DNA of 41,051 nucleotides from a virus. Position 1 is the stretch's first letter. Every line of letters begins with the position of its first letter. Position numbers and translations under genes: made by a program. The notes beneath the pieces are model-generated. The model had not been told where the DNA came from. It made no database searches and saw nothing but the letters and a program-made list of their open reading frames with translations. Positions 3,363 to 38,998 of this stretch are shown piece by piece. The DNA lies in the IMG/VR virus record IMGVR_UViG_3300030107_006102, positions 1 through 41,051 of that record; one strand, 5' to 3'.

Positions 3363-6300
3363 ATGGCAGTAAAAAGAGTTCAGTTTAATAATATAGTTCA
3401 AAACCAGCTTCCTGAATATGTCAGGGATGAATTTCCGCTGGTTTCTGACTTTTTAAAGACATATTATCAAGCAAATGAATATCAGGGTGCTCCTACTGAT
3501 TTAATTCAAAATATTGATCAATATTCTAAAATAGATGAACTTACTAATCTAGTTGATAAGGTTTCTTTGAATTCAGATATTACTGAAATTGAAGAAACCA
3601 TAGATGTAGATATATCAACCTATACTCAAGGAACTAAAGGATTTCCTGATAGTTATGGACTCTTAAAAATTGATGATGAGATTATAACTTATACTGGAAA
3701 AACAGATACTTCATTTACTGGTTGTATAAGGGGTTTTTGTGGTATATCTTCCTATAAGTCAGATAGTGATCCAGATGTACTAGTATTCAATTCAACCACC
3801 TCTGAGACGCATACAAAGGGGTCTGAGATAACGAATCTAAGTACTCTCTTTCTTAAAGAGTTTCTTTTAAAAACCAAATACCAACTATTACCTGGACTTG
3901 AAAACAGATCCTTACATGTTGACCTTGATCAAAATGTTTTTATCAAACAAGCAAAGGATTTTTATCTAAGCAAAGGTACAGATCAATCTTTTGAAATTTT
4001 ATTTAAAGCATTATATAATGAAGAAGTCAAAATCATTAGACCTGGTGAATTTCTTTTTACACCATCAAATGCACAACATCAAATAACTAATGATCTAGTT
4101 GTTGAAGCAATTGAAGGTGATCCAGTAGATTTACAAGAATCTACATTATTTCAAGATGGATATGGTACTGATATTGAAAAAGCATATGCTCCAATTACTA
4201 GTGTAGAGAAAGTTTGGACAGGAACTGCGACTACTGCATATAAATTAAGTGTTGATGGTGGATATAATAGAGATTCTAGAGTTGATGGTGCAATGTATGG
4301 TGCATTCTCTGTTCATCCTAAAACTAGGGTAATTGGAGAAGTAGGAGTAGGAAATACTGTACTTAATGTTGATTCAACTGTTGATTTTGCAAATTCTGGA
4401 GAATTATCAGTAATTTATAATGATGCTACTGCAGGAGTTGTTTCTTATACATCAAAATCAACAACTCAATTCTTTGGATGTTCTAATATAATAGGAATTA
4501 TTGAAGATGCTGCAAATATTGGAATCAATACTTATGCATACGGAACTTCTTTTAAAGATTCGACTAAAACTATTAAAGTAAGAATTAATAATGTTTTAGA
4601 TAAATTAGAACATTCTAATGAATCTTATGGATATGCTAAGGGTAATACTGCAAAAATTAAAACTTTAGGTGTAAAGGATAATACTTTTAAAGGAAAGAAT
4701 TGGTTTTATAATTTATCTCCCATTTATAATATTAGTAAAGTAGAATTACTTGATAGTATTGATTTAGTATATAAAGTAACTACTGAATCTGATGCCATCT
4801 TTAAGATTGGAGATACTGCTATTCTTAAAGGTTATGATGGAATTGATAGACAAACTACTATTATTTCAGTAAATGCATCAAATGCTTTTACAATTAAAGG
4901 ACAGGGAAATATTTCAACTAATCAAAGTACTATTCAAAGGAATTTATCAAACGCACAGTCCAATACTTTTCCTAATATTGACATATATACTGCCAATGTT
5001 CAGAATGTTTATGAAAAAGGTGATGATTTATTAATAGCATCTCCTTCTCTTCCATCTTATAATGAGCAACCATTAAATGTTTCTACTAGATCAGTAGTTT
5101 TTTCTGGTTTCTTTGATCAAGACACTTTTAAGATCTCAAGTGAGGAGCATGGTTTATATACTGGTGATGCAATTTATTATATCCCACAAAAAGTTTCTTA
5201 TACCTATTATGATTCATTTGGTCAATCCTTCACTGGTTTAAAGGTAGGATCTTCCTTATTTGCTAAGGATTATGATTATGTAATAGATGGTAATGATAAT
5301 GGAGTTATAGTAAGTGGTAGAATTCCTCCAGGTGAAGGTTTATATTTTGTTAAAAGAATAGATTCTACTACTATCAAACTTGCTGTTAGTAGAGCAAATA
5401 TTGAAGCTTCAGATTTTATTTTCTTAATTAATCCTTCTAATGTAACTGATTGTATAATTGAACATTATAATTTAAGAAATAGTACATTACAATCACAAAA
5501 ACTTTTAAAAGAAATATCTCTTCCTCAAGAAGATGGTGTTGTATATCCCACTAAACCAGGAACTACAGGTATTCTAATTAATGGGGTTGAAATAGAAAAT
5601 TATAAATCTACTGATTTTATTACTTATGGAAAATTAAATTCTGTTGATGTAATTAGTGGTGGAGAAGGATATAGCATTACAAATCCACCTCTTTTAAATA
5701 TATCCGATTCTGTAGGAGTTGGAGCAACAGGATATCCCGCTATTTCTGGATCTTTAACTAGAATTGAACTTATAGATCCTGGATTTGATTATACAGAAAC
5801 TCCTATTATTACTATTACTGGTGGTGCAGGAGAAGGTGCATTAGCTTCTGCAAATATGAAATCTATAATTCATGAGGTTTCATTTAATGCTAGTCTTCCT
5901 TTTGCAGGTGCTGTTTCCACTTCCTCAGTGAATCTTACTGATAATACTATTGGATTTGGAACTGTTTATCATAAATTTAGAAATGCAGAACAAGTTCTTT
6001 ATACTGCCAATGGACAAACAGAGGTTGGTGGACTTATACCTTCCACATATTATTTTGTAAATGTTAAAGATCCATATACTGTAGGAATTCACTCTACATT
6101 TGAAGCTTCAGTAGCAGGTATTAATACCATTTCTTTGACTGATTATGGTGTAGGAAAACAACTTTTAAAATCTGTTGCTAAAAAATTAATTATTGATTCT
6201 ATTAATGTTCTTGATTCTGGAAGTAATTATCAAAATAAAAAGAGAACAGTACAACCAGTAGGAGTTAGTACTGTTTTAGATCAGATTACAATTGATAATC

Positions 6301-9300
6301 ATGATTATAGTTCTGGAGAGGTTATTAAATATACAACTGATGGAACTATAATAGAGGGTCTAGTTCATGGATCTGAGTATTATGTAACATCAATTGATAA
6401 AGATAATTTTAAATTATCTCTAACAAAAGACTTATATGATACACAACAGTATGTTAATATTGGATCAAAAGGTGAAGGTACACAGACATTTAATTATCCT
6501 GAGATTAGCGTTAATTTAACTGGTACTATTGGAATACCTGCAGTAGGTACTGAAACTTTTACTGCGAAGATACAACCAATTTTTAGAGGAGAAACTACTT
6601 CAATCCATTTAGAAAATAATGGTGTTGGATATGGTTCATCTGAAATTGTTAATTTTAATAGGACTCCTTCAGTTTTCTTTGTTAATGGAGGAAGAAATGC
6701 TCAAGTGGAACCGATAGTTAGTAATGGTGCTATTATTGATATTATTATTCTGAATAAAGGTATTGATTATACTAGTGTTCCTAATTTAGATATTGATGGA
6801 GTAGGTACTGGTGCAGTTTTGACACCAGTAATAGAAAATAATCAATTAGTAGATGTTAAAATAATATCAGGTGGTGTTGGATATGTACAAGCATCTACAA
6901 CTATTTCTATTAGAACAGTAGGAAAGGGTCTTAAATTAAAATCAAATGTTCAAACTTGGAATATAAATTTATTCCAAAGAGATCCCAATTTTACAAAAGA
7001 TGATGGATTTATTGTAAAAGGTCAAGAAGGTTTACAGTATACTCATTTATATGCTCCAAGAAAACTTAGAGAGTCGGTATATTCTGTAGATCAGTCTGGT
7101 AAGACTTTATATAATAGACCTGATTTGAGAAGAGTAAACAATAGTGAAATACCTTCAGAATTCCATTCTCCTATAATTGGATGGGCATATGATGGTAATC
7201 CAATATATGGACCATATGGATACCTTACAAATGAAGGTGGAGTAATTGCTCAAATGCAATCTGGTTATTCTTTAGATTTGAAAGAAGGAAGACCTCCTAT
7301 TTCAATTTACCCTGAGGGATTCTTTATTGAAGATTATTCTCATAATGAAGTAAGTGATGATACAGTATTAGATAAAAATAATGGAAGATTCTGTGTTACT
7401 CCAGAATTTCCAAATGGAACTTATGCATATTTTGCAACTGTTGATAATTCTGTTGCTGCATCTGCAGGTCCATTTGATGGATATAAAGAACCTAAATTCC
7501 CATATTTAATAGGAGATAATTATAATTCTACTCCTAATGATTTTAATTCCTCAGTTTTAGCGTCTCAGGATAAATTTAATTATGATGGATGGTTTAGGAA
7601 TACTCAACCATATAATTTAGTTGCTAAAGATCTTAATTATAAGTATCTTTCTATTCCAAATAATTTAAAACAAACGATTGATATAACAGGTATATCTCCT
7701 GGTACTATTGAAAGTATAGGAATACAAACGGGAGGAGAATTATATAAAGTTGGAGATTCTGTAGTTTTTGATAATACAAACACAGAGGGTAGAGGAGCAG
7801 ATGCTAAAGTATCTCATATTGATGGTAAAGCAGTAACTAGTGTAAGTGTTGCTAGTAGTGTTATTACTGGTGTAGAGATTTATCCATCTAATACTAATGG
7901 AATCTATGAGATTGTTTCACCCAATCCTCATGAATTTTGGAATACTGAATTAGTTACTGTTAGTGGATTATCTACTACATCATCTAAAATTGGTGGTATT
8001 TATAATGTAGGAGTTACTACTCATACTTGGTCTTTAACAGGAGTTGGTAATACTACCATAGCAATTGATGATGTAAGTACGACGGGTATAGTTACTTTTT
8101 TAAATGTTTCTGGTAATTTCAATAATGATAGAATTAGAAGTAATGATATTTTAGAAATTGGTGCAGAAAAAGTAAAAGTTTTAAATATAGATCCTTTATA
8201 TTCTAGAATTAGAGTATTGAGAGAATTTGACGGTACTGTGGGATCTTCTCATAGTGTAACAACAGTTGCTTATGAGAAACCAAAAAGATTAACTATTAAT
8301 GCTGGATTTAATACAACTTATAATTATAGAGTCAATAAAGAAATTTATTTTAATCCAATTCATACAGTTGGGTTAGGAACTCTTACTGGAGTTGGTATAG
8401 GAACAACTATATCTCTTGATTATGTTGGTTCTGGTACTAGTGAAGTCTTTATTCCTACAAAAGCACTTTATATTCCAAATCATGGATTAAGAACAGGTGA
8501 TAAACTTTCTTATTCTCCAAATACTGGTCTTGGAATTTCTATTGCTTATGATTCTACTGTATCTGTTTCTACTTTACCTTCTACGGTTTATGTTGCTAAA
8601 ATTGACGATGATTTAGTTGGTCTAGCAACTGTAAGAGTTGCTCTGGGTTCAACAGGTACCTTTAAAGGCGTTGATCTTGGGTTTAACGGGTCTACAACGC
8701 TGTTCTTTACTGGAATTGGTACAAATGTATACCATAGCTTTAAAACGAATTATGAACCAATAACTGGAGAAATTTCTCAGCATATTGTTACAGTTGCTGC
8801 TGCATCTACACATGGATTATCCAATAATGATGTAGTTAATGTTTCAGTTAATCCTTCTAATACAAAAACCTTTATTCTTAAGTATAACAAGTATAATAGA
8901 AGACTTGTAGTTGATCCTACTACAGTTCTTGCTGCTAATATAAACATAACAAATAATTCATTTACTCTTAGTGATCATGGATATTTAACTGGCGAAAAGG
9001 TCATTTATAATGCTCCCGTTACTTCTTTAGGTGGGTTAATTGATAATGGAATATATTTTATTGTAAAAGTTGATAATAATACATTTAAATTATCTGAAAC
9101 ATATCATAAATCTACTTTATTAAAACCAGTAATTATTGATATTACAAGTGCTGCAGATGCAACATTTAGTAAAATTAATCCTTTAATAAAAGCATATAAA
9201 GATTCTAGTGTAGTATTTGATTTATCCGATTCTTCCCTTTCTTATATTAATCAAGGAGTATTATATCCAGCATTTGCATTAAATCTCTATACTGATAAAG

Positions 9301-12300
9301 ATTTTACTGAAGAATGGGAAAGTAGTAAAATCAATAGAAATTTTGAAGTTCAAAGAACGGGTACTGTTGGTGTAACTGCCGATGCTAAAGTTACTTTAAA
9401 AGTAGATAAGAATATACCTGAGACTTTATATTATAAATTAAATCCAATTTCTGATAATGATTTACCTGAATTATATAAAAATATTATTATAGATCCAGTA
9501 ACTAATAATAGTGAAATTGAGGTTAAAAATAGTCTTTATAATGGTGAGCAAACTATTACTCTTGGTTCTACTAGCTCATTTAAGTATTCTATACCAAATA
9601 TACCAGAACAATCTTCATATACACCAACTACTTCAGTATTAACATACAATACTACTTCTAAATCCGCTTATGGACCTATAAAGCAGTTTGAAGTTATTAA
9701 TCAAGGACAAAATTATTATTCTCTTCCTGGTATTTCTACTATTAACTCTAAGAGTGGTAATAATGCTTTAGTGGAAGCTGCTAGTACTTCTATCGGTAAA
9801 ATAAAGAAAACGAAGATTCAAGATATTGGATTTGATTTTCCATCTGACCCTACTCTAGAACCTAGTGTTAATTTACCTCAATTTGTGGTAATTAGAGATT
9901 TGGGATCTTTAAAATCTGTTGGTGTAACCTCAGTTGGACAGGGATATTCTATACCACCTAAATTAGTTGTTTTAGATGGAGATACTAAAAAAGAATTACC
10001 TGGTGTTGATTTAAAATATACTTTAGGAAATTCTAAAGTAGAAATTTTAAATAATAGTACAGGTATGTCTATGCTGCCTCCTACTATTCTTCCTATTGAA
10101 AATTCAAATGGTGTTGGTATTAGTAGTATTTCATATAATCCCAATACTAAAGATGTAACTGTTGAATTAAATGTTGGATTTAGTACTGCAGATACCTTCC
10201 CATTTAATGTAAATGATAAGGTGATGGTAGAGAATATAAGTGTTGGAGTTGGTTCAACTGGATTGGGATATAATTCTATTAATTATGATTATGAGTTGTT
10301 TACAATTACTGAAACTCACCCAAATATTGGTGGAATTGGTGCAACAGTAACTTATAATATGGGTACTTTGATCGGTGCAGGTCAAACTATTGGAGAATTT
10401 ATACCTTCTAATTCTATCGGAAGGATTATTCCTGCAAAACATTTTCCATTATTCCAAGTTGAATTAAAAACTAATGAGTTCTTTATTGGTGAAGAAGTTA
10501 AATCAAATTCTGCAACTGGTATAGTCGAATCTTGGGATACTAATGATGGTGTTTTAAAAATATCGTCTCCTGATAATTTTGTATTAAATGAAGTAATCAA
10601 AGGACAATCTTCAAATACTCAAGGAATTGCATCATCAATTACTACATATGATGCTAATTTTAAATTAAATGCTTTCACTAAAGTTGATAAAGGAAATAAA
10701 ACTCAGTCTGGAGTTCTTAATTTTAGTATGCAAAGAATTCAGGATAGTTTCTATTATCAAAATTTTGCATATTCATTAAGATCTAAAGTTGATTTTGATA
10801 CTTGGGATGATCTTGTAAGTAGTACGAATCATACTTTAGGATTTAAGAAGTTCTCTGATTACCAATTAGAGACTAATGAAGATGTTAATGTGACAGTTGG
10901 ATTATCTACTGATTTAACTTCTTTTGAAGTTATTAATGACTTAATTGGACATGGAGATTTGAATTGTGATTATAACTTTGATTTAGTAAAAGAAAATTCA
11001 TTAACATTAGATTATAAAATAGCATCTGATGAAATAATTTTTAATAGTAGAGTTCTTACTGATTATTATGAATCAATTGGTAACAGAGTACTTTCAATTG
11101 ATGATATTAGTCCACAATTTAATAGTCATCCTAGACCAACAGCATATAGTGTTGCTGGAAGTTTTAATTTAGATGATACTCGTTCTGCAAAATTTATTAC
11201 TTTTGTAAGAGATAAGAGATTTACAGGACAAAGGCAATTAATGATTGTTGATCTTGTTCATGATAGTTCTACTGCATATTTGAATCAATATGGTAGAGTT
11301 GAGAGTCAATATGATCAAGGTTCTTTTGACTTTAGTATTTTGGGTAATGAAGGACAATTATTATTCTATCCTACTCAGTCTGCATTAAATGACTATTGGG
11401 TCATGGCTCTTTCTTATAATCTAAATGATGATTTTGTTTCTACTGGTGCTACAAGTTTGGGTGGAGTTGCTTTAATTGATTCTCAAAGTACGGAAGTTGC
11501 TCCCAATACTCAAACCAATATTGTTAGTATTGCTTCTACATATCGTTCTATTAAAACACTTGTTAATATTACAGCTGATACAGGTATTCAAAATAATGAA
11601 TATCAGATGGAGGAATTGAATATTATTCATGATGGAACTAATGTGGAGTTAATGCAATTCGGAGAATTATCTACAACATTAACACCTTTGGCTGCTGCTG
11701 GATTGGGAACTTATAGTGCTTATATTGATGGTGGAAATGTTAAAGTTGATTTCCATCCAGGTGTAGGAATAGGAACAACTGCAGTAGTTAATACTCTTCA
11801 AGTTGCTTTAGCGACTGATGCAGCAACTGGTATTGGAACTGCTGATTTGAAACATGCAAGGATAGAAGCAAGAACTACTTCAATTAGTGCTAGTGCAAAT
11901 CCAACACCTACAGTAATAGCAGAATTTGAATCTCAAATTGCATCTGATGATATTTTTGATGCTGGATATTTTATAATTCAAGTCACTGATAAAACAAATA
12001 ATAGATATCAGATGTCTGAATTTATTGCTGTTGATGATTATATTGAAGAAGATGGTTTAGGTAATACTTATGAAGTTGAGTTTGGTAATGTAGAAACAGT
12101 TGTTGGACTGGGTACTATTGGATCTAAATTAGATATTAATGTTGGAGGAACTACTAATCTTCAAGTTACCTTTACTCCAACACCAAATATTGATGTAGAA
12201 GTTAATGCTTATACTAATGCATTAAGAATAACAGATGATGCTAAGACTAGTATGAGTCTTAATGAAGCAGGTTCTGTAAAAGCATTCTTTGGTGATTATA

Positions 12301-15300
12301 CTGGTACTGATAGAGATATTAAGAGAGCATTTGATTTAACACATAATAATTACGAAATTTTCCAAAGAAGTTTTGAGGGTAATGATAGTTCTATTGTTAG
12401 TATTGATGCTAATACTATCGCAATTCCTAATCATTTCTTTGTAAGTGGTGAGAAAATTAAATATGCTCGTTCTGGAATAGGATCTACACATGCAATAAGA
12501 ATTGCTAATACTAATTTCCCTGAATTAGGATTCTCTACAACATATCTACCAACAGAATTATATGTTGTTAAAATTGATGCTGATAAGGTTAAAGTAGCAA
12601 CTACTGCTGAAAATGCACTTAAGGTAGTTCCTGAAGTAATTGATATTACCGATGTTGGTATTGGCACATCACATAGATTTACTTCTACTAATCAAAATCC
12701 AAAAGTTATTGTTGCTTTAGATAATATCTTCCAATCACCAATTGTATCTACTGCTTTAACTACTCATCTTGCTGATCAAATATTTACTACCAGCGATCTA
12801 CTTGAATTTAGTGGTATAACTTCATTCACTGGAAGTGATTTGATTCAAGTTGAAGATGAGATAATGAAGATTGAAGGTGTTGGTATTGGTAGTACTAATA
12901 GGATAAGAGTGAGAAGAGGGTGGTTAGGAACTAAGAGTTCTGGATATGGTACAAATACTATGATTACTAAGGTAAATGGTAATTATAATATTGTTGATAA
13001 TACACTTAATTTCTCTGAAGCACCTTATGGAAATATTCCTCAAAGTTTGCCAACAAATCCACCAGATTCTAGAGATTGGGTAGGAATTTCAACGAGTTCT
13101 ATTTTCCAAGGCAGATCATTCATGCGTCGTGGAATACCCAATACAAGTAATGAAACTTATTCTGAGAATTATATTTTTGATGATATTTCTTCTGGATTTA
13201 ATGCTACTAACAAGGAGTTTACTTTAAAATCAAAAGGTCAAAATGTATCAGGAATTTCTTCAGCAAATGGAGTAATTTTAGTTAATGATGTATTCCAAGG
13301 ACCAGGTGCTGCTTATAATTATACACTTGAAGAAGCAGCAGGTATTACAACCATTACTTTCACTGGAGATGCAGTTCAGCCAGAAACTTTAGATAGAGAT
13401 GCTAATGCTACTAAGCGTCCATTGGGTGGAGTAATAGTATCAGTAGGATCAACCGAAGGTTGGGGATATCAACCATTAGTTGCTGCTGGAGGAACAGCAA
13501 TTGTAGGTGCATCAGGAACTATTACTTCTATTAGTGTTGGTAATACTGGTTCTGGATATAGATCAGGAATTCAAACTGTAAATGTTTCAATTAAACAAGA
13601 AAATCTTACTGATATTGATATAGTTAAGATTGGTACTGCTACTGTTGCTGATGGACATGTAACAGGAGTTGCGGTTACTAATTCTCAAGTATTCTACAAA
13701 CCAAGAAGTGTAACTAATGTAGGATATAGTTCAATAACAGGTATAAGTGAAATTAAGACATTTATGCCTCATGGATTATCTCAAGGTGATGAGGTTACTC
13801 TTTCTGGAATTGCATTTACTTGTACTTACTCTGGTCCTAAGTCTATTACTGGATTTGCTTATAGTGCATCAACTGGAATTGCAACAGTAACTACTTCAGG
13901 AAATCATGGATATGAAATAGGAAAAGAGGTCATATTTACTGGTATTGGAATGACCTGTGCATTAGATAATGGTGCTTCTACTCATTATTATCCAAGAGGT
14001 GAAGATTATGCTTATAATAATTCAGTAGCAATTGCTGCAACAACACCAACTACTATTACTCTTGATGTTGGAGTTTCTGCAAAGAATGATCAGTATACGC
14101 ATACATGGAACGGTGGAACAGCAACTAATGCTATAACCAGTGGTGGTGATTATCAGCATATATTTGCAGGTTCTACTTCAAATTCAATTAGTATTGCTAA
14201 TACTACAAGAACACTAACACCAACTGATGCTGCATATAATGCTGCTGTAGGACTAGTAACATTTACTGTTGCTAATCATGGATTGTTTACTACAGATACT
14301 GTTGGAGTATCAACAAATGCACTAGAATTTAGATGTGCAATGGATGATTATACATCATTACATTCATATCCTCGTACAACTGATCCTATTCATAATACTA
14401 TGGTAGCAGTTGCTGCAACAACAGCAAATACATTTACTATTAATGTTGGTACATCTGCATCAGTTACTCATAATGTTTCTGATGCAAATTATGATGCTTC
14501 TACAGGAATTATGGTATTGACTATTGGTGCTCATACTTTAAAAACTGGAACCAATATTAAGATTGGAACAGAGTCTTTGTCATTCACATGTTCTAAAGAT
14601 GGTAATGCATCTACTCACAAATATCCAAGAAAACCTGATCCTTATTATGCTGGTACAGAGGTAACTCAAGTTAATAGTGCAACTGAATTTGTAGTTAATG
14701 TTGGTATAGCTACTGTTCCAACTTTTTATAAAAATGGAGGAACTGTACAAGGAGTAATTATTGCACCAAGACCAACAGATCAAGCAGTTTCTAATGGAAC
14801 GGATACTGGAAGAGCGACAGTTTTAAGTATTATTGATAATAATACATTTAGTGTTAACACTGGAGTTTCAAGCAGAACTCACTTCTATGCCCGTTCTGGT
14901 AAGGTTCAGAAACCTTTAGATGTGGTATTTGATTTCCCTCTTTCTTATGATAATTTACCATTAATTTATGCTGATGGTGAAACTGGATTTGGAACTGCTG
15001 GAAGAGTGGATGTTCAGGTTGGTCAAGGTTCTAGTGTAATTGATTTTGAAATTACTAATACTGGATATGGTTATGGTGAGGGTGATATTTTAACAGTTCC
15101 TATTGGAGGAACAACAGGAATTCCAACTACTTCTGGATTCCAAGAATTCCAACTTACTGTTACAGAGGAATTTACAGAGGAATTTACAGGATGGTCTATA
15201 GGAACACTTGAAGTTCTTGATAATTTTGATGATTTATTTGATGGTGATACACAAGCCTTCAGAATTAGTAAAAGCGGAACTCTACTTTCAATTAGATCTT

Positions 15301-16877: not shown

Positions 16878-16880
16878 ATA
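16873..16880 (+). promoter_or_regulatory. Weak late-promoter-like octamer (TCTAAATA)
   Basis: TCTAAATA overlaps the stop codon of the giant gene and lies 23 nt upstream of the 714-aa fibre gene. It differs from TATAAATA at one position (C for A at the second base), in an important part of the motif, so this is tentative. Confidence 0.25.
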
Positions 16881-16902
16881 TTTAAAATTAAGAGTCTAAT
16901 CA

Positions 16903-19047: not shown

Positions 19048-19066
19048 ATTTACTTCACATTATATT

Positions 19067-19074
19067 GATAAATA
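19067..19074 (+). promoter_or_regulatory. Candidate late promoter (GATAAATA) upstream of gene 8
   Basis: GATAAATA lies in the 46-nt gap between the fibre gene and gene 8, 20 nt before the gene 8 start, one mismatch from the T4 late consensus. A transcript would begin near 19080. Confidence 0.6.
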
Positions 19075-19093
19075 AAAAGAAAACTGTTTAACA

Positions 19094-20650
19094 ATGGCGG
19101 CCATAATAACTGATCAGATAAGAATATTGAATGCAAAGAACTTTGTTGCAGGTGTAACTACGGGTACTAATGCATATTATTCTTTTATAGGTCTACCTAA
19201 TCCTACCGATCTTCAAAGTGATTGGGATAGTAATCCTCCATCACCTAAAGATAATTTTGAAGAAGAGGATGAATATTGGGATAGTATGATTGCATTGAAA
19301 AAGATTAATGCAGGTGATGTTAGACAGGTTGTGAGAAGAAGAGTATGGTCTTCTGGAACTACTTATGATATGTACAGAAATGATTATAGTAGATCAAATA
19401 TTGCAAAGATTTCTGGAGCAACTAATTTATATTCTGCTTCATATTATGTTGTTAATAGTGATTATAGAGTTTATGAGTGCCTTCAAAATGGCACAGATCC
19501 TGAAAATCCTGATGGAAAACCTTCTTTAGATGAACCAACATTTACTGATCTAGAACCAAGGTCTGCTGGTAGTAGTGGTGATGGTTATATTTGGAAATAT
19601 CTTTATACTATTAAACCAGGTGATATTGTAAAGTTTGAGTCTACTGATTTTATTCCTACTCCTCCAAATTGGACTACTAGTACTGATGATGCTCCTGTTA
19701 GAGCTAATGCAGTTGATGGTTCAATTAAAATTGTTACTATTACTAATCGTGGTGTTGGTTTAGGAACTGCAGGTGAAACTTATACTAGAGTTCCTATTAA
19801 AGGTGATGGTACAGGAGCAGAATGTACGATTGTTATTAATGCTGAATCAAAAATTGGAACTATAGAAATTTCTAGTCAAGGTTCTGGTTATACTTTTGGT
19901 AGTGTAGATTTGATTGCAGGTGGCGTTCCTACTGGTACAACAATACCTACCTTTGATGTTATTGTATCTCCTCCAGGAGGTCATGGATATGATGTTTATA
20001 GAGAACTTGGTGCATACAATGTTCTTTTATATTCTAGAATTGAAAATGATATCGAAAACCCTGATTTTATTACAGGCAATCAAATAGCAAGAGTTGGAGT
20101 AGTTGAAAATCCAAAAGTTCCTGGAAGTCTTACAGAGAATTTAAGTATTGATAAAGCAAGTGCTTTAAATGCTCTTAGATTGACTGGTATTGGATATAGT
20201 ACTGCTACATTTACACCAGATTCTTATGTTACTCAAACCATAGGAACAGGACAGACTGCAGCAGGAAGAGTTGTAAGTTATGATCAAACTACAGGTGTTT
20301 TGAAGTATTGGCAAGATAGAACAGTTGCAGGATTTAATACTGTAGGAACTGCTCAAACCAATCCAACTTATGGTTATGAGTTGTATCAGTTTACAAGTAC
20401 TCCATCTGGAAATGGAAATATTACCATTGTTCCATCAAGTGGTTCAAACTTAGGTATTGATACTACTTTTACAGGTATAAGTACCTCAATAAATAATAAG
20501 ACATATTACCTTGGTCAATTCTTTAATAATGGCCTTGCATCTCCTGAAGTTAAACAGCATTCAGGAAATATAATATATGTTGATAACAGACCTTCTATTA
20601 CTAGGTCTGCTAACCAAAAAGAAGATATCAAAGTTATTTTGCAGTTCTAA
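19094..20650 (+). CDS. 8: Baseplate wedge subunit gp8
   Basis: 518 residues against 334 in T4 gp8. The ends match well. The C-terminus K-Q-H-S-G-N-I-I-Y-V-D-N-R-P-S-I followed by N-Q-K-E-D-I-K-V-I-L-Q-F parallels T4 R-H-S-G-E-M-I-Y-M-E-N-R-P-P-I...I-N-I-L-F-T-F. The middle has G-D-G-Y-I-W-K-Y-L-Y-T-I near residue 165 (T4 G-D-G-Y-V-W-E-Y-L-F-E-I), and V-V-R-R-R-V-W (T4 V-I-P-R-R-D-W). gp8 dimers join the wedge and connect gp7 and gp10. Most extra length comes from an inserted stretch at about 210-280 with the G-S-G-Y module (I-E-I-S-S-Q-G-S-G-Y-T) also found in neighbouring proteins. The start ATG follows a late octamer; no clear SD. Confidence 0.9.
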   Translation: MAAIITDQIRILNAKNFVAGVTTGTNAYYSFIGLPNPTDLQSDWDSNPPSPKDNFEEEDEYWDSMIALKKINAGDVRQVVRRRVWSSGTTYDMYRNDYSRSNIAKISGATNLYSASYYVVNSDYRVYECLQNGTDPENPDGKPSLDEPTFTDLEPRSAGSSGDGYIWKYLYTIKPGDIVKFESTDFIPTPPNWTTSTDDAPVRANAVDGSIKIVTITNRGVGLGTAGETYTRVPIKGDGTGAECTIVINAESKIGTIEISSQGSGYTFGSVDLIAGGVPTGTTIPTFDVIVSPPGGHGYDVYRELGAYNVLLYSRIENDIENPDFITGNQIARVGVVENPKVPGSLTENLSIDKASALNALRLTGIGYSTATFTPDSYVTQTIGTGQTAAGRVVSYDQTTGVLKYWQDRTVAGFNTVGTAQTNPTYGYELYQFTSTPSGNGNITIVPSSGSNLGIDTTFTGISTSINNKTYYLGQFFNNGLASPEVKQHSGNIIYVDNRPSITRSANQKEDIKVILQF

Positions 20651-20656
20651 GTAATC

Positions 20657-23600: not shown

Positions 23601-26600
23601 AATTAAAAATTTATTTTGAAAATGCATACTATGATCCTACAGATACTGGTGATGTAACTACGGTAGAATCTTATAGGAATTTTGATTATTCTACAGAAAT
23701 TCCATCAGTTAATGGAATTAGGAATAGTGATATTATTGATATAAGACCTAGAGTTTCTACTTATACCGTTGGAGTAGATAGTCGTTCTCCTCTTGAATTT
23801 GATGGTAGAACATTTAATGGTGCTGGTAATTCTGCTGGTGCTATGCTCCAATCAGATGGATCTATTTTAACCACTTATTCATATTATCAAGGAAGAATAG
23901 ATAGAATTTTTGTTAATAAAGAAGGTATTTTCCAAGTAGTATATGGAACACCTGCAGATAGACCTAGTTCACCTCTTCCTATAGATGATGCTATAGAAAT
24001 TGCAACAGTTAGTCTTCCTGCATATTTGTATGATGTACAGGATGCTTCTGTGAAATTCTTAGAATATAAGAGATATCAAATGAAGGATATCCATAATATT
24101 GCAACTAGAGTTAAGAATTTAGAGTATTATACTGCATTATCATTATTGGAAACTAATACTGCCAATATGTTTGTTTCAGATGCAAATGGATTGAATAGAT
24201 TTAAGTCTGGTTTCTTTGTGGATAATTTCTCTGATTTTATTACTCAAGAATTAAATCAAGGAGTTAAAAATAGTATTGATCCACAAATTGGAGAATTGAG
24301 ACCATCTCATTATACAACTGCGGTTGACCTTATGACTGGTCCTGTAGAAAATAATATTCCTAATCAAGATAAGAATTTTGAGACTCCTCAAGGTTTGAAT
24401 ATTAGAAAAAATGATGGTATTATTACTTTAGATTATGGTGAAGTTGAGTGGCAAAAGCAGACTTTTGGAACTAGAACTGAAAGCGTAACACCATATGTTG
24501 TTGCTTATTGGAGAGCAAATTTAGAATTAAATCCATCTTCTGATACATGGGTTGATCAAACTAGATTAGATGCTCGTATTATTAATAGAGAAGGTAATTT
24601 TGCTGAAACAATAGCAGAACTATCTCAAACTAGAGGATTTAACCCTCAAAATGGATTTGGTCAAACTGTATGGAATTCGTGGAATAACTTCTGGGCTGGT
24701 AACTCCAGAACTTGGAATGATGTAGATACCCGACGAACGGCTGAAAGAAGGGGTAGATGGATTTTTAACAGGAGAAGAGTAGTAACTCGTCTTATGACAT
24801 CTGAAGATGGAACTAGAACAAGAACTGGAACCAGAATGCAGGTTAGGGAGCAGTTTGAGACTGAATCTCAAGGAGATAGAGTTATAAGTAGAGAGTTAAT
24901 TCCTTTCATGAGATCTAGGAATGTTGAGATTACTGCAAACGCATTAAAACCTTTAACTCAACTATATGCTTTCTTTGATTCTATAAATGTTTCTGAGTAT
25001 TGTGTACCTAAATTACTTGAAATTAATATGATTGATGGTACATTCCAAGTTGGAGAAACTGTTCAGGGAACAATGCAAACAACTTGGAGTGGTGGTACTG
25101 GACCAACAAATCTAATTACTTTTAGAGTTGCTCAAGCAAATCATAAAGAAGGTGAGTATAATATTCCAACTAGTACTTATAAGGATAATCCTTATACTCT
25201 ACAACCACTTTCGTCTGCATATTCTTCTACTTCCACTTTATTGAATGTAGATACTTTCTCATTATCTAATATTAATCAACCAGAATTTAATGGTTATGTT
25301 CAGAATCAAATGATTTTGGTTGGACAAACAAGTGGTGCTCAAGCAAGAATAAGTAATGTCAGACTTATTTCTGATATTTCTTCTTGGCTTCAAGGTTCAT
25401 TCTTTATTCCTGATAATAATAGAAATCCTTCTGCACCTAGATTTGAAACTGGTAATAAGTTGTTTAGACTTACTAGCGATATTGATAATACTATGAAATC
25501 TTCTACTAGAGCAGAAGAGGAATATAGAGCAGAAGGATTCCATGATGTGGTTCAGGAAACTATTATTTCTACAAGAAATGCTACTGTAGAAATGACAGAT
25601 GTTTCTCAAACTGAAAATATATCAAGAGTACTTAACAGTAGAAGAGTTTCTGATAGTGGTTGGCAAACTATTAGTCAAAGATTTTTGGGAGATCCACTTG
25701 CTCAAACATTTAATGTTGAGGATGAAACAGGAGTATTCTTAACAAGAGCTGATGTTTACTTTAGATCTAAAGATGATATGGAGGTTCCTGTCAACTTCTC
25801 TATCAGAACAGTAACTAATGGTATTCCAAATAAAGTAATAGTTCCAGGAACAGAAATTAATTTAAATCCTGAAGAGGTTAATATTTCTAGTGATGGTTCA
25901 TTTGCAACTACTTTCCAACTTAAATCTCCTGTTTATTTTGAAGGAAATCAAGAATATGCTATGGTCTTGATGAGTAATTCTGCGAAATATGAAGTTTATA
26001 TTTCTAGAGTAGGGGAGAATGATTTAATTACTGATGCTTTTGTAGGACAGCAACCATTCGCTGGTTCTTTATTCAAGTCACAGAATGCTTCTACATGGGA
26101 ACCAAGTCAGTGGGAAGATCTTAAGTTTACTCTTTATAGAGCAGACTTTAATCCATTATCAGGTAGTATAGATTTTTATAATCCTGAACTTGCTGCAGGA
26201 AATAATCAACTTCCATTACTTGATAATAATGCATTATCATTTACTTCAAGAGAATCGAGAGTTGGTTTAGGAACTACTGTTGTTGATGGTGGTCTTAAAG
26301 TTGGTAATTTGATTATACAAGCAGGAACTAGTGCTTCAGGAAATTTAGCAGGATTTGCAGGAACTGTTACTTCTTTAAGTATTGCTAATGCTGGTATTGG
26401 TTATACTCCTAATGCTGGTACTTTAACCTATAATAATGTTGATTTAGTTACTGTAACTGGTGGTGGAAGAGGAGGAAAAGCTAATGTTACTATTGGTGAT
26501 GGAGTTATTACTGGTGCTGTTATTTCAAATGAAGGTGGTGGTGGATATCAGGTAGGTGATATTGTTGGTATTGCTACTTTAGGAAGTGCTGCAGTTGGAA

Positions 26601-28741: not shown

Positions 28742-28744
28742 ATA
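28737..28744 (+). promoter_or_regulatory. Candidate late promoter (CATAAATA) upstream of gp13
   Basis: CATAAATA overlaps the stop of the 133-aa gene and is one base from TATAAATA. It lies 22 nt before the gp13 ATG, with the AAGGGG ribosome site (28750-28755) in between, so a very short leader would carry the SD. Confidence 0.55.
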
Positions 28745-28766
28745 TATTGAAGGGGTAATAGTCTAA

Positions 28767-29621
28767 ATGGCACAACCAGCAAGTAGATCAGACTTAATAA
28801 ACTATGCTAAGAGGCAATTAGGTGCTCCTGTGCTGGAGATTAATGTCGCTGATGAACAAGTAGAGGATATCTTAGATGATTCCATCCAGTATTTCCAAGA
28901 GAGGCATTTTGATGGTGTAGAACGCACCTACATGAAGTATAAATTGACAAAAGCAGATATTGATCGAGGAACTGCTAATACAAGTACTGGTTCTACAAAT
29001 ACAGATGGTATAACAACTACACAGGCATCTACAACTATTAATGGTAGTACAATTCAATTTGATTGGGTAGAGAATAGTAATTATTTACAAGTACCTCCAG
29101 AGATTATTGGAGTATATAAAATATTTCATTATGACGGATCTAACACTGCTAGTAACAATATGTTCAGTGTTAAGTATCAGTTATTCTTAAATGACATTTA
29201 TTATTGGGGATCGACTGAGATATTAACTTATGCAATGACTAGAAGATATCTAGAGGATATTAACTTCCTATTAACAACAGAGAAGCAAATAAGATTTAAT
29301 CAGAGAATGGATAGATTGTATTTGGATGTAGATTGGCAAGCAGTGAATGAAGGAGATTTTATTATCATGGAATGCTTTAGGGCATTGAACCCCGCAGACT
29401 TCCCTAGAGTATGGAATGATTCATTCTTAAAAAGATACTTTACTGCTAACTTAAAAAGACAGTGGGGGCAAAATTTACTTAAGTTCCAAGGAGTTAAATT
29501 ACCTGGTGGCATAGAGTTAAATGGACGGCAAATCTATGATGATGCCAATCTAGATCTTGAAATTATAAGAGAACAGATGTCCAATACTTATGAAGTTCCA
29601 CCACTTGATATGATAGGATAA
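28767..29621 (+). CDS. 13: Neck protein gp13 (head completion)
   Basis: 284 residues (T4 gp13 has 309). The N-terminal helical region R-S-D-L-I-N-Y-A-K-R-Q-L-G-A-P-V-L-E-I-N-V followed by D-E-Q-V-E-D-I-L-D-D-S-I-Q-Y-F is the family signature at about 8-43; then the H-F-D-G-V-E-R-T-Y segment. The second half contains R-F-N-Q-R-M-D-R-L-Y-L-D-V-D-W near 185 and ends in a P-P-L-D-M-I-G tail. gp13 with gp14 makes the neck ring joining portal and tail. A good SD (AAGGGG, 28750-28755) lies 11 nt before the ATG. An inserted Thr/Ser/Asn-rich stretch at about 73-90 (N-T-S-T-G-S-T-N-T-D-G) is low complexity. Its stop overlaps the gp14 start by one base. Confidence 0.9.
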   Translation: MAQPASRSDLINYAKRQLGAPVLEINVADEQVEDILDDSIQYFQERHFDGVERTYMKYKLTKADIDRGTANTSTGSTNTDGITTTQASTTINGSTIQFDWVENSNYLQVPPEIIGVYKIFHYDGSNTASNNMFSVKYQLFLNDIYYWGSTEILTYAMTRRYLEDINFLLTTEKQIRFNQRMDRLYLDVDWQAVNEGDFIIMECFRALNPADFPRVWNDSFLKRYFTANLKRQWGQNLLKFQGVKLPGGIELNGRQIYDDANLDLEIIREQMSNTYEVPPLDMIG

Positions 29622-32185
29622 TGGCATTAAATCCATACTTTCAACAAGGAGCAAGATCTGAGCAGAGTTTAGTTCAGAGTCTCATCAACGAACAGTTGAG
29701 GATGTATGGCATTGAAGTCCATTATATGCCTCGAAAATATTTGGCAACTAATACAGTTATAAGAGAAGTAGTACAGTCTAAATTTGATGATGCATATCCA
29801 TTAGAAGCATATGTTGATACTTATGATGGATATGGAGAGAATCCTACTATTCTATCTAAGTTTGGTATAGAACAAACTAATGAGATAACATTAACTATAT
29901 CAAAAGATAGATGGGAACAATATATTGAACCTTTGATGAAGAATGAACCTGATGTCAAGTTAACAACTAGACCTAAGGAAGGTGATCTAATCTATTTCCC
30001 TCTTGGAGATAGATTGTTTGAAATTAAATATGTTGAGCACGAAAAACCATTTTATCAGTTACAGAAAACTTATATTTACGAACTTAGATGTGAACTCTTC
30101 CGTTACGAAGATGAGGTTATTGATACTGGTATTGCTGAAATTGATGATGAATTAACAGGCGATACTGCAAGTGGTGAGACTGAAGATGGTACTCCAATTA
30201 TTATTGGTCCAACTCAAACTCTTACCTTAGTAGGTGCTGGTGTACAAGCAACAGCAGTAACAGGTATTCGCAATCATTATATTAGATCAGTTACGGTAAC
30301 TGGTAGAGGTGGTGGATATAATCCTCCAGTCTATATTGGATTCTCATCAGCACCTACAGGTGGAGTAACTGGTATTGGTACTGCTTCATTGATTGGTGGA
30401 ATTAATGTATGTAATTTAAATATTAATCCTAGAAATCGTTCTGTTCAAGCAATTAATCTTATTAACTCTGGTAGTGGATATACTGTTTCTCCTGGAGTAG
30501 CAGTAACAGGTGATGGAAAAGGAGCAACTGCTACTGCTGGAATAGGTACTACTGGTGGTGTAGGTATAGTAACTCTTAGTGCTGCTGGTGGTGGTTATGT
30601 ATTTGCACCAACAGTTACCTTCTCAACCCCCGTACATGTAGGAGCAGCAGCAACTGCTGTTCTTGATGTTCCTATGGTTGGTGGAGGAGTAAGTATTACA
30701 TCTGCACCTATTAGTATTGGTGCTTCCTCATACCTCTTTAATGGTGGAACAACAGGTGGTGTTTACTATAAGAAAGCACCAAAAGTTACATTTGCTTTGC
30801 CAACTGGTAGTGCTGACACTGCAACTGCTACAGCTACTTTAGATGATTACCATACAACTGGTGGAACAGTATTAAGTATTGCAGTTAATGATGGTGGAAG
30901 ATTCTATGATTCTTCAACTCCACCTAATGTATACATTTCTCATCCAGGATGGTCTTATGCTTCTGCATCAATTGGAATTGCAGGTACTTCTATTGATCCA
31001 GATTCTATATCATTTGGTTCTACAGGTAGAGCATATACAACAAGTCCTACAGTTATTATTGGAACAGGTAGTGGTACAGATACGCCAATAGAATATGCAG
31101 TTGGTATTGCTACTATTAATCCGATTACTGGTGTAGTTACTGCTGTTTCGTTTGATGTTGCTGATCCTTGGGCAGTTGGAACTGGTGCTACAATTGGTCT
31201 TGGTTACACAGTTACACCAACAATTTCATTTAGTGGTGCTCCCAGTCCTGTTAATGCAACAGCAACTGCTTCGATTGATGCTGATGGTCAAGTTGAGGCT
31301 ATTTCTATAGGTAATAGTGGATTTGGTTATGTTTCTGTACCATCTGTAACAGTAGCAGCACCTACTTCTACTGCAGAACAGTATAGAGCATTAGGAGTTG
31401 CTACAATAAGGTATAACTCAGTTGAGGTCGAAGGAACCGTTGGTATAGGTTCTACTGTCATTACAGGAATTACTACAACTAATATTGTTGTTGGTGATAG
31501 AGTTAGAATGTTCTATGATTATGATGATGTTTTTGTTAACTATATTCCTGAAGATACTTGGGTAACACAGATTGAACCAAATGAAGTTTATATATCTGCA
31601 GAAGCAACTAATGTAGGTATTGGAACAACAACATTTGAGTTTGGTATTGATAAGTGTGGTATTGTTACAGGAATTGCTGTAACATGGGGTGGCGGTGGAT
31701 ATCTAACACCACCACTTGTGTCTATTTCTAATACTGAAGGAGATAAGAATTATATAGAACAAGTAGCAGGAATACACACTGCTACAGGTATATCTACATT
31801 AACTCCTGCAGGAAATGTAGCAGCTGCATACATAACTGATGCAGGTCATGGATATGTATTAACTCCAACAGTTACTCTATCCGAACCTTCGATGGATTCT
31901 ACAGGAAACTTTATCTTTAATGAAATTGTTACAGGTTCAGTCAGCAATACAACTGGTAGAGTAAGAACATGGAATGGTACAACTAATGTTCTTGAGGTAT
32001 CTTCAATTACAGGATCATTTAAACTTGGTGAGATGATTGTTGGATCAACTTCAGGTGCATCACACAAGTTACGCATTATTGATACTGAACCTACTGATGA
32101 TGGTTATGCAGATAACTTTAATATAGAAACGGAAGCAGATAAGATTTTAGACTTTACAGAACAGAACCCGTTCGGGATTCCCTAA
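29621..32185 (+). CDS. 14: Neck protein gp14, greatly enlarged (854 aa)
   Basis: Residues 1-185 match gp14: M-Y-G-I-E-V-H-Y-M-P-R-K-Y near 28 (T4 M-R-G-V-E-C-Y-Y-V-P-R-E-Y), the A-Y-V-D-T-Y-D-G-Y-G-E-N segment, and K-E-G-D-L-I-Y-F-P-L-G-D-R-L-F-E near 118 (T4 K-E-G-D-L-I-Y-F-P-M-D-N-S-L-F-E). The end (I-L-D-F-T-E-Q-N-P-F-G-I-P) is the expected C-terminal tail. Between them, about 195-800, lie roughly ten G-x-G-Y-x-x-x-P-x-V modules of 45-75 residues, absent from T4 gp14 (256 aa). The core should form the neck with gp13; the insert probably projects outward as beta-rich decoration. The start overlaps the gp13 stop (TAATG). Confidence 0.88.
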   Translation: MALNPYFQQGARSEQSLVQSLINEQLRMYGIEVHYMPRKYLATNTVIREVVQSKFDDAYPLEAYVDTYDGYGENPTILSKFGIEQTNEITLTISKDRWEQYIEPLMKNEPDVKLTTRPKEGDLIYFPLGDRLFEIKYVEHEKPFYQLQKTYIYELRCELFRYEDEVIDTGIAEIDDELTGDTASGETEDGTPIIIGPTQTLTLVGAGVQATAVTGIRNHYIRSVTVTGRGGGYNPPVYIGFSSAPTGGVTGIGTASLIGGINVCNLNINPRNRSVQAINLINSGSGYTVSPGVAVTGDGKGATATAGIGTTGGVGIVTLSAAGGGYVFAPTVTFSTPVHVGAAATAVLDVPMVGGGVSITSAPISIGASSYLFNGGTTGGVYYKKAPKVTFALPTGSADTATATATLDDYHTTGGTVLSIAVNDGGRFYDSSTPPNVYISHPGWSYASASIGIAGTSIDPDSISFGSTGRAYTTSPTVIIGTGSGTDTPIEYAVGIATINPITGVVTAVSFDVADPWAVGTGATIGLGYTVTPTISFSGAPSPVNATATASIDADGQVEAISIGNSGFGYVSVPSVTVAAPTSTAEQYRALGVATIRYNSVEVEGTVGIGSTVITGITTTNIVVGDRVRMFYDYDDVFVNYIPEDTWVTQIEPNEVYISAEATNVGIGTTTFEFGIDKCGIVTGIAVTWGGGGYLTPPLVSISNTEGDKNYIEQVAGIHTATGISTLTPAGNVAAAYITDAGHGYVLTPTVTLSEPSMDSTGNFIFNEIVTGSVSNTTGRVRTWNGTTNVLEVSSITGSFKLGEMIVGSTSGASHKLRIIDTEPTDDGYADNFNIETEADKILDFTEQNPFGIP
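30290..31880 (+). repeat. About ten G-x-G-Y...P modules inside gp14
   Basis: The insert shows, in order, G-G-G-Y-N-P-P, G-S-G-Y-T-V-S-P, G-G-G-Y-V-F-A-P, G-V-Y-Y-K-K-A-P, G-G-R-F-Y, G-R-A-Y-T-T-S-P, G-L-G-Y-T-V-T-P, G-F-G-Y-V-S-V-P, G-G-G-Y-L-T-P-P and G-H-G-Y-V-L-T-P, several followed by a strand and an Ala/Thr-rich A-T-A-T-A stretch. The DNA copies are diverged, so the array is not from recent slippage. Confidence 0.8.
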
Positions 32186-32188
32186 ATA
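32181..32188 (+). promoter_or_regulatory. Weak late-promoter-like octamer (CCTAAATA) upstream of gp15
   Basis: CCTAAATA overlaps the gp14 stop codon and lies 22 nt before the gp15 ATG, at the usual distance. It has two mismatches to TATAAATA, so support is positional. Confidence 0.25.
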
Positions 32189-32209
32189 TAATACACTAGG
32201 ACTATAACA

Positions 32210-33214: not shown

Positions 33215-33216
33215 TC

Positions 33217-33651
33217 ATGACTGAAAATTTTGACAGATTAGATAAGACTTTTAATGTTACTCCTGAAGTAGAAGTAGTAGAAGAAAAGACTGAGGTTGTT
33301 AAACCTGAGAAACCTGATAGACTTACTAAAGACGATATAACTAGAGATTATGAGTATACAAGAGGTAATCTTTATAGTATAATAGAGAAAGGACAAGAAG
33401 CAATTGACGGGATTCTTGAAATTGCTCAAGAAAGTGAAATGCCCAGAGCATATGAAGTTGCTGGACAGTTAATTAAGAGTGTTTCTGATGCCACTGACAA
33501 ATTAATAGACCTTCAGAAGAAATTGAAGGATGTTAATGAGGAGACGGTAGCAAAAGGACCATCAACTGTTAATAATGCACTTTTTGTTGGTTCCACAGCA
33601 GACCTTGCCAAATTAATCAAAGGTCAAATACCACCAAATAAGTCTGAATAA
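33217..33651 (+). CDS. 16: Terminase small subunit gp16
   Basis: 144 residues (T4 gp16 has 164). The pattern is characteristic: an acidic/proline N-terminal tail (V-E-V-V-E-E-K-T-E-V-V-K-P-E-K-P), then D-Y-E-Y-T-R-G-N-L-Y-S-I-I-E-K-G-Q-E-A near 45, P-R-A-Y-E-V-A-G-Q-L-I near 75 (T4 P-R-H-M-E-V-F-A-T-L-M), a coiled L-I-D-L-Q-K-K-L-K-D-V-N-E-E segment and N-N-A-L-F-V-G-S-T-A-D-L (T4 N-A-T-V-F-M-G-S-P-T-E-L). It recognises DNA and stimulates gp17 during packaging. In T4 gene 17 follows at once; here it begins 6.9 kb further on. Starts 2 nt after gp15. Confidence 0.92.
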   Translation: MTENFDRLDKTFNVTPEVEVVEEKTEVVKPEKPDRLTKDDITRDYEYTRGNLYSIIEKGQEAIDGILEIAQESEMPRAYEVAGQLIKSVSDATDKLIDLQKKLKDVNEETVAKGPSTVNNALFVGSTADLAKLIKGQIPPNKSE

Positions 33652-33654
33652 ATA
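33647..33654 (+). promoter_or_regulatory. Candidate late promoter (AATAAATA)
   Basis: AATAAATA overlaps the gp16 stop codon, one mismatch from TATAAATA and 26 nt before the GTG of the 1267-aa gene. A transcript would start near 33660 and include GGAG (33666-33669) as a possible ribosome site. Confidence 0.5.
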
Positions 33655-33680
33655 TACTTGTAGATGGAGTAGAAATAAAG

Positions 33681-36600: not shown

Positions 36601-37484
36601 ATTTCCAAGTAGGAATGGGAGTTACACTTTCTGGTATTCAAATGTCATGTGCTTATGGAAATAAAACATATCCATATCAAACACCATTTATCTTTGATGT
36701 AGATGCAATTCCTTCAGTTAGAAAATTTGTAGTTAATGTTGGTATTTCTACTGTTTCACATGGTTATGTGTCTGGTGGTACTGCAAAGATTGATGTAGAT
36801 AGACCTTATGATGGACAGTTAGTTTACTTTGATGAACTTTATAAAGAAGTAACTACCATAACAGTTACATCTGGTGGTGCTGGATATAGTGCTACTCCTA
36901 CTGTAACTGTTGATGCTCCTACTGGTCCTAGTGGTGAGACATGTACTGCTTTTGCAACTCTTGAAGGAGATAGTGTTGCAAGTATTACGATTATTAGTAG
37001 TGGTAATCAGTATGTAGGAACTCCTAATGTAACAATTTCTGCACCAGAATCTGGTAGTGATACTGCAACTGCTACTGCATTGATGCAACCATTATACTAT
37101 ACAATAAATAGTTCAACTCCAGTTACTGCTGGAATTACTACATTAACTCTTGCTACTAATTTACTTAATAGTGTAGGTGTTGGTTCTACTGCATTTTTTG
37201 CTCAAGGCAGTAGAATTGTTGCTAGTTCTCATACATTTGAATATGTTGGTTCTGGTAATCAGATTGTTACTGCTACTCCAAAACGAGGTGGTGTTACCAA
37301 TCAAGAAAATGAAGTAGTTACTTTAGATGGTGGTAAGGTTCTTTATACCAGTACAGACCAAGCAGGTAACTTTAGAATTGGTGATGATTTGCAAATCAAT
37401 CAAGAAACTGGTACAATTAGTGGACGATCTTTTAGTAAGAGTTTGTTCTCAGAAATGACTCCGTTTATCCTAGCATTAAGTTAA
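33681..37484 (+). CDS. Large fibrous virion protein: N-terminal coiled coil, beta-helix-like middle (1267 aa)
   Basis: Residues 1-490 are highly charged with long heptad-like helices (many K/E, repeated 'V-E-E-x-I-x-x-I-E-E' patterns), so a long coiled coil is likely. At about 490-535 comes D-P-L-T-P-I-G-Q-K-Y-V-T-F-D-K-L then F-V-N-R-V-Q-Q-Q-L-A-T-L-G-G-G-G, a signature seen in marine T4-like phages. A fibre-like segment (565-700) leads to N-V-L-Y-V-A-K-D-G-N-D-N-N-N-G-T at 710, which opens a region to about 935 resembling a pectate-lyase-like right-handed beta-helix (G-P-Y-I-Q-N-C-T-S-D, N-G-G-F-A-Q-L-V-S-L-F). A TC/YP module (about 955-1035), a G-A-G-Y module (about 1057) and the end G-N-F-R-I-G-D-D-L...M-T-P-F-I-L-A-L-S follow. 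I use GTG 33681, giving M-P-L-K-K-P-S-E-F. Role probably fibre or whisker-like; enzymatic activity cannot be claimed. Confidence 0.7.
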   Translation: MPLKKPSEFYDKNPNSPFDNVKEELKNAKPEKVERISEAFDSFKGNLNNLQALKDFTETFGTFKSNVEKVETLSSSVEEIRESITDLIDRKDLDDAMMAHLLFVEESIRNVQDKVKTVNSNTLLEINQGFDSLSNSVSQFLGEEVPAYKKLIVDSETRVDNRFGSFKESVAESFKDFGQDIYKEIATITEGIEGVNEKSLSSIKEDVKGIGEKVKALLEEELPQYQKFFAETELKVEDRISESEELVEGKLKSTKKGCKKDIEAVEENIKGIEESRANTEKGINKLFKALANDIVTLDEKISVVDIGLTSIHEQVKDKDTSVNNILAEKIVKIENLVEESKQLSDIFKRDFKNREINEDRKLQEYSSTLDAFSEKIEKLEENLEGNICELQENLDTSTTKYYDDLKSNVGEFQKDLDDKLKGIKIDFVVNEKHIEGIRREFETVLEKLQVDKIEQKSKELTSKVRHLEEVLEKFDEKQVLTEGLLNIPPDVDNSDPLTPIGQKYVTFDKLAEHYRLFVNRVQQQLATLGGGGAVRLDDLEDVDVSGGIADNYIIQYSTSNSKWVAKAGNVGGAGTWGSDSVGVSTSKNVGIGTTAKADVKLFVEGDIEATGNVNVAGTITYDDVQHVDSLGLSTFRSGLEVQTGTATTALLVEGDARITGILTIGTASITIDGDNNEINVGVVTVTNSTIFIGAGVSISGTASGINSAPNVLYVAKDGNDNNNGTSIDNAFLTIKSAVGVAQSGTTVKVLSGSYEEANPIEVPAFVSVVGDDQRAVNVSGATKTNNIFHVRKGVKLANMTFKEHLHPAAAVSFPTDEIAENVGGGKWKGPYIQNCTSDTTTGTGLYIDGDQARSLKAMNVDAFTQYNQGGVGVAVTNGGFAQLVSLFTICTNEAVTVDKGGQADIANSNCSFGSYGLVARGVSDLQYTGETSATAAISQPNINVNVSTPTLNISNFQYDHLSGVATVTTTTNHNFQVGMGVTLSGIQMSCAYGNKTYPYQTPFIFDVDAIPSVRKFVVNVGISTVSHGYVSGGTAKIDVDRPYDGQLVYFDELYKEVTTITVTSGGAGYSATPTVTVDAPTGPSGETCTAFATLEGDSVASITIISSGNQYVGTPNVTISAPESGSDTATATALMQPLYYTINSSTPVTAGITTLTLATNLLNSVGVGSTAFFAQGSRIVASSHTFEYVGSGNQIVTATPKRGGVTNQENEVVTLDGGKVLYTSTDQAGNFRIGDDLQINQETGTISGRSFSKSLFSEMTPFILALS

Positions 37485-38845: not shown

Positions 38846-38847
38846 TT

Positions 38848-38997: not shown

Positions 38998-38998
38998 A

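Follow-up and report, generated by a model that had tools for sequence, protein, structure and literature searches.

Phage proteins are known to acquire, exchange, and duplicate small domains. Tail-associated proteins of crAss-like phages carry tandem BACON repeats, whose arrays have been moulded by duplication or horizontal transfer and for which host binding has been proposed (PMC6949934), and phage receptor-binding and neck passage proteins share fragments across functional classes, with recent within-protein shuffling (PMC10684548). In phage T4, the C-terminal region of gp14, past the barrel, shows no order when the neck complex is isolated and binds gp15 within virions (PMC12270204). Here, we describe a module of ~40 amino acids (aa) that recurs in gp14 and four other virion proteins encoded by a 41,051-nucleotide (nt) stretch of viral DNA, hereafter the window, from IMG/VR record IMGVR_UViG_3300030107_006102 (46,354 bases). 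The window is the virion gene cluster of a T4-like marine phage, with cyanophages S-SM2 and Bellamy among its close relatives, and encodes gp6, a 4504-aa gp7-like baseplate protein (the giant), a gp10-like protein, gp8, a DUF4815 (VrlC-like) protein, gp13, gp14, gp15, gp16, and a 1267-aa fibre-like protein. The giant is a full-length member of phrog_2885 (3746 bits) and is ordinary among the cyanophage proteins of that family, its modules lying at orthologous positions. Our results suggest that the repeat is probably an insertable surface module that spread long ago and has been passed on in place from then on, with gp14 alleles being exchanged by recombination.

A module common to five virion proteins

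The original prediction held that a single Gly-Tyr-Pro motif was common to the giant, gp8, DUF4815, gp14, and fibre-like proteins and had been copied between their genes. Taken literally, the motif matched only the giant, gp14, and the fibre-like protein, but a looser core (G.GY.{2,4}P) was enriched in these three, with 4, 7, and 1 matches, respectively, versus 0.235, 0.105, and 0.015 expected from shuffled proteins. A hidden Markov model (HMM) of the ten gp14 copies matched the fibre-like protein (22.7 and 31.9 bits) and the giant (14.7, 9.8, 7.5, and 5.9 bits) but gave no significant match to gp8 or the DUF4815 protein. These matches surpassed shuffled sequence, as locally shuffled proteins yielded 0.03 matches per set at >=6 bits.

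We also slid 60-residue slices past the gp14-only profile with hhalign, using orthologue alignments for the giant, gp8, DUF4815, gp13, and gp15 and single sequences for the other proteins, with the same slices in reversed column order as the null. Scores of >=18 were reached by 44 of 526 forward slices and by 0 of 526 reversed ones, whose maximum was 16.7. The giant, gp8, DUF4815, and fibre-like proteins each contributed slices at that level and were the sole source of forward scores of >=15, a value that no slice of gp6, gp13, gp15, or the gp10-like protein reached. One module is thus common to all five proteins, as predicted, and the window holds ~29 copies (Table 1). Every site listed in the prediction was supported except that at 15036, which is marginal (16.9 against the null maximum of 16.7), and its list for the giant was incomplete, lacking four copies (at 5754, 6192, 6732, and 6846). 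At three sites (7707, 15036, and 26513), GY..GD stands in place of GY...P. Independent support comes from other viruses, whose module-array proteins hit the PHROG families to which gp14, gp7, gp8, baseplate hub, and fibre proteins belong; the matches to the gp8 family (phrog_438) fall at positions 188-273, with expectation values (E) down to 5.7e-12.

The module is not confined to phages and behaves as an insertable beta repeat. Scanning with an idealised, hand-written consensus, which biases the bacterial and viral samples towards canonical copies, revealed arrays in numerous contigs from bacteria and in some from archaea, and across these and the viral loci a module profile gave 753 forward and 2 reversed matches. 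A contractile-system tail sheath of Nostoc foliaceum (L142, 2972-5083) has six modules between its two conserved parts, versus zero in the solved Anabaena sheath. Two multicopper oxidases (CotA/PhsA-like; L110, 3551-7927, and L139, 1442-5371) each have six modules ahead of the C-terminal copper domain, with four more near the N-terminus of the former (ten in total), and a GH64 glucanase with a dockerin has twelve. Plasmids gave no module match. Since only the N. foliaceum genome among 146 genomes of the Nostoc phylum contained the module, it has no obvious source in cyanobacterial hosts.

No Pfam or NCBIfam family scored above its curated cut-off over the modules of the window proteins or of six bacterial arrays; a sub-threshold E1_FCCH match (giant aa 3503-3534) overlaps no module. 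Literature searches of open-access texts did not find this module described. Within what was searched, it therefore appears to be undescribed, despite its presence in numerous virion proteins of cyanophages and its sporadic occurrence in bacteria and archaea.

Module history and gp14 size classes

Twenty-nine window copies were compared with one another and with copies collected from other cyanophages; the two fibre-like copies had no collected orthologues and so fall outside the result. All of the other copies (27/27) were most similar to the same-locus orthologue, at 0.47-0.88 of self score versus 0.21-0.40 for the best window copy in another gene. A DNA repeat search of the window found no inter-gene repeats beyond short, low-identity patches, and the module positions in the giant, gp8, and DUF4815 proteins are common to as many as six further phages, which represent at least five genera. 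Since the closest relatives are same-locus orthologues and inter-gene DNA repeats are lacking, the spread of the module is ancient rather than ongoing; judging from these comparisons, it would have moved among genes before the compared phages diverged and then been inherited in place. The prediction that copies would group across proteins consequently failed, and that of copying between genes holds only in part: the copies are homologous across otherwise unrelated proteins, so the module once moved, but not recently. What moves now is the allele of one gene, the gp14 array.

The N-terminal head-closure domain of gp14 matches T4_neck-protein (PF11649) with 101 bits (cut-off, 25) and is homologous to T4 gp14 over residues 3-168 (PDB 9mkb and 9lu4-9lu7; E 2e-24). 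T4 gp14, however, has 256 aa and neither modules nor extension, whereas the window's gp14 carries an extension of ~680 aa. Because the post-barrel region of the T4 protein binds gp15, the cyanophage arrays, which separate the core from a conserved tail, would sit at the neck-tail joint. The baseplate wedge protein gp8 of T4 (PDB 1n7z) compares similarly: it aligns with the window's gp8 over residues 3-203 and the last ~34, but it has no counterpart to the region holding the two modules.

Among 80 complete gp14s, size is bimodal, with 68 proteins of 456-491 aa (~4 modules) and 12 of 851-870 aa (~10 modules); S-SM2 has 4 modules in its gp14, and gp14 of S-CAM9, with 8 modules, is intermediate. 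The long form has an extra cassette of ~370 residues, which opens inside module 3 at an identical site each time, and the recurrence of this form in 12 other records, the partial L011 included, rules out an assembly artefact. Long and short forms are interleaved in the tree built from the gp14 core (aa 1-172), implying six changes, at least four of them forced by well-supported branches. A single long-form clade was rejected (p 2e-60), and the window, together with L002, falls within a clade of short forms.

Recombination is evident when the window is set against its near-identical short sister, L019. The two gp14 cores are 93-100% identical up to ~aa 195, likeness resumes from ~aa 766, and the flanking parts are 87-100% (upstream) and 77-87% (downstream) identical. 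Over aa 271-345 and 706-765, the window's gp14 is 63-80% identical to a distant long form versus 31-52% to L019 in most intervals, and a three-way scan places the swapped tract at ~aa 275-760. Likewise, the gp14s of L004 and L007 share 75% identity in the cassette and 65% in the core. DNA of the close relatives L014 and L057 aligns at 83-86% across the stretch 19.6-39.0 kb, except for one gap, at 30611-31902 in gp14, and shorter relatives of up to 92% DNA identity have the same gap. Since the modules shared with L019 have diverged while the core is near-identical, the difference reflects array exchange and not simple deletion. On this sequence evidence, gp14 arrays appear to be swapped as alleles via recombination inside the gene.

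Candidate role and alternative explanations

The module is predicted to comprise three beta strands: one of A-T-A-T, one that ends in N/D-x-G-x-G-Y, and a short one of P-x-V-x-F. A three-strand repeating unit is visible in the AlphaFold model of short gp14, whose array has repeated strands and a predicted local distance difference test (pLDDT) value of ~80-92; this model covers gp14 alone of the five proteins. Sequence searches of PDB with the module alignment and with a bacterial array returned nothing convincing, and Foldseek against PDB with the short-form model gave no match at E 0.001, an absence that excludes nothing as a test for BACON or immunoglobulin-like (Ig-like) folds. With VIA-align, Z was at most 5.8, to translation-factor barrels; the eIF2gamma/EF-Tu barrel matches over outer strands from both programs were weak and were taken as common architecture. 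Otherwise, both recovered the T4 gp14 core alone.

We propose that the module was placed in the gp7-like, gp8, DUF4815, and gp14 proteins of ancestral marine T4-like phages, the fibre-like protein lying outside the history that could be traced. In gp14, arrays of 4-10 modules between the T4-type neck core and the conserved tail would be exchanged as whole alleles within the array. The gp14 ring may bear these arrays outward around the neck, an exposure that we infer, and exchange would then alter contact with host or environmental surfaces. Adhesion to the host is plausible by analogy with the carbohydrate-binding and Ig-like repeats thought to do so in other phages, and our best guess is a surface-exposed spacer or adhesive repeat. 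More tentatively, and with considerable doubt, gp14 could be a length-variable surface locus, making the neck a third site of host or particle interaction, beside the tail fibres and baseplate, through a module that is unnamed in the libraries searched.

Several explanations compete with parts of this proposal. Convergence of Gly/Thr/Ala-rich beta proteins on a short pattern might be imagined, as the conserved core is short (G, Y, and P) and many virion proteins are rich in Gly and Thr; it is nonetheless highly improbable, since reversed slices of identical composition never reached the scores seen in 44 forward ones, reversed matches at other loci were next to none, the profile spans 34 positions, and tandem copies are spaced ~40 residues apart. 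Ongoing or recent copying between virion genes within one genome would agree with the true homology of copies in different genes, and one fibre-like copy is most similar (0.57) to a copy from another phage's gp14 and not to one in its own protein. Yet the uniform affinity of the 27 copies for same-locus orthologues, the want of DNA repeats, and the positions held in common across genera make such copying very unlikely, and for the giant, gp8, DUF4815, and gp14 proteins it is largely refuted.

For gp14, the long form could instead be ancestral, with short forms produced by deletions that recurred in separate lineages and no transfer involved. Tandem modules are mechanistically easy to lose and short forms predominate, but deletion should leave similarity in the shared modules at the level of the core; instead, these modules differ strongly from those of L019 and resemble distant long forms, and L004 and L007 resemble each other more in the cassette than in the core, so we regard this history as unlikely. 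As to function, the modules may serve not as adhesins but as structural elements that space or stabilise the neck and baseplate, and this we consider a sizeable possibility, although short of an even one. They occur in core assembly proteins and not in fibres alone, the corresponding region of T4 gp14 binds gp15 (PMC12270204), and bacterial arrays also lie within laccase-like enzymes; however, array length varies two-fold among close relatives whose gp15 region is 83-92% identical, which a load-bearing fit would hardly tolerate. Some points also weigh against exchange of surface-exposed adhesive arrays as we propose it: the core tree alone cannot tell repeated loss from transfer, even though the pattern of allele identity argues for the latter; the cassette of long gp14 is poorly modelled by AlphaFold; and no solved relative was found for the module fold, so that adhesion is suggested by analogy only.

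Feature coordinates, neighbouring genes, and comparison with known repeats

Table 1. Module copies and gp14 features, by position in the window
Feature	Residues (aa)	Position	Strand	Evidence
Giant, module	758-792	5634..5738	+	hhalign 30.8
Giant, module, absent from first list	798-830	5754..5852	+	hhalign 36.8; module-alignment A4 profile E 7e-16
Giant, partial module, absent from first list	944-956	6192..6230	+	hhalign 26.6
Giant, module	1078-1106	6594..6680	+	hhalign 23.6
Giant, module, absent from first list	1124-1156	6732..6830	+	hhalign 35.2
Giant, module, absent from first list	1162-1190	6846..6932	+	hhalign 21.4
Giant, variant module (GY..GD)	1449-1481	7707..7805	+	hhalign 20.6
Giant, module	2106-2125	9678..9737	+	hhalign 20.2
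Giant, module	2183-2201	9909..9965	+	hhalign 28.2
Giant, partial module	3387-3399	13521..13559	+	hhalign 19.8
Giant, doubtful variant module	3892-3920	15036..15122	+	hhalign 16.9, at null-maximum level
Giant, module	4196-4231	15948..16055	+	hhalign 47.9
Giant, module	4239-4265	16077..16157	+	hhalign 30.0
gp8, module	214-226	19733..19771	+	hhalign 21.3; within phrog_438 188-273 array match
gp8, module	254-267	19853..19894	+	hhalign 24.1
DUF4815 protein, module	1904-1920	26366..26416	+	hhalign 23.5
DUF4815 protein, variant module	1953-1974	26513..26578	+	hhalign 19.0
gp14, conserved core, T4 neck-protein domain	1-172	29621..30136	+	Pfam PF11649 8e-29; T4 gp14 (PDB) 2e-24
gp14, module 1, present in short forms too	222-262	30284..30406	+	gp14-copy HMM
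gp14, module 2, present in short forms too	275-313	30443..30559	+	gp14-copy HMM
gp14, module 3; cassette opens within its short-form equivalent	314-353	30560..30679	+	gp14-copy HMM
gp14, swapped stretch: sole gp14 DNA unalignable to close relatives L014, L020, L057; extra-module cassette		30611..31902	+	
gp14, module 4, cassette	376-415	30746..30865	+	gp14-copy HMM
gp14, module 5, cassette	417-456	30869..30988	+	gp14-copy HMM
gp14, module 6, cassette	461-506	31001..31138	+	gp14-copy HMM
gp14, module 7, cassette	517-558	31169..31294	+	gp14-copy HMM
gp14, module 8, cassette	558-597	31292..31411	+	gp14-copy HMM
gp14, module 9, cassette	682-733	31664..31819	+	gp14-copy HMM
gp14, module 10, counterpart of module 4 in short forms	733-763	31817..31909	+	gp14-copy HMM
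gp14, C-terminal part: two other small repeats and conserved tail ADNFNIETEADKILDF.E.NPFG.P		31925..32182	+	strands modelled, short-form aa 395-448
Fibre-like protein, module	1057-1094	36849..36962	+	22.7 bits (gp14-copy HMM); hhalign 33.7
Fibre-like protein, module	1099-1134	36975..37082	+	31.9 bits (gp14-copy HMM); hhalign 40.7

Other repeats and domains were observed in the same genes. A second small repeat, F..GE.I.G..SG, occurs twice in the C-terminal part of gp14 (31910-32110), beyond the module array, and the giant contains a YHYH domain (PF14240, E 3e-22) at aa 1263-1363 (window 7149-7451). A 60-nt stretch of the giant gene (14686-14745) is 77% identical to one in the fibre-like gene (36724-36783) and encodes F-V-V-N-V-G-I-[AS]-T-V, another motif common to both proteins. 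The gp10-like gene (17121-17364) holds two 76-nt copies, 82% identical and 168 nt apart. Downstream of the virion cluster (38465-40564) are genes with DUF1257, PurS, and DUF192 domains, of which the PurS gene would be an auxiliary metabolic gene. A 178-aa open reading frame at 38999-39535, without a Pfam match and in a region unalignable to the close relatives L014, L057, and L002, is a lineage-specific gene.

Naming the module would annotate part of the 'virion structural protein' space, and caution is warranted in that matches among such proteins (gp14 to gp7, or to fibre) may reflect the module alone. The exchange of gp14 alleles is a specific new case of a kind already known in general, and it offers a clean, testable example in which recombination affects a core assembly protein and not a fibre. 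Like the BACON repeats, the module forms tandem domains in tail-associated phage proteins, and its role may be comparable; unlike BACON, which is established and named, it is a ~40-aa unit that has no Pfam or NCBIfam match and occurs also in core neck and baseplate proteins. It likewise differs from the shuffling reported for receptor-binding and neck passage proteins (PMC10684548) in combining a small tandem module with an allele swap inside the T4-type head-closure protein gp14.

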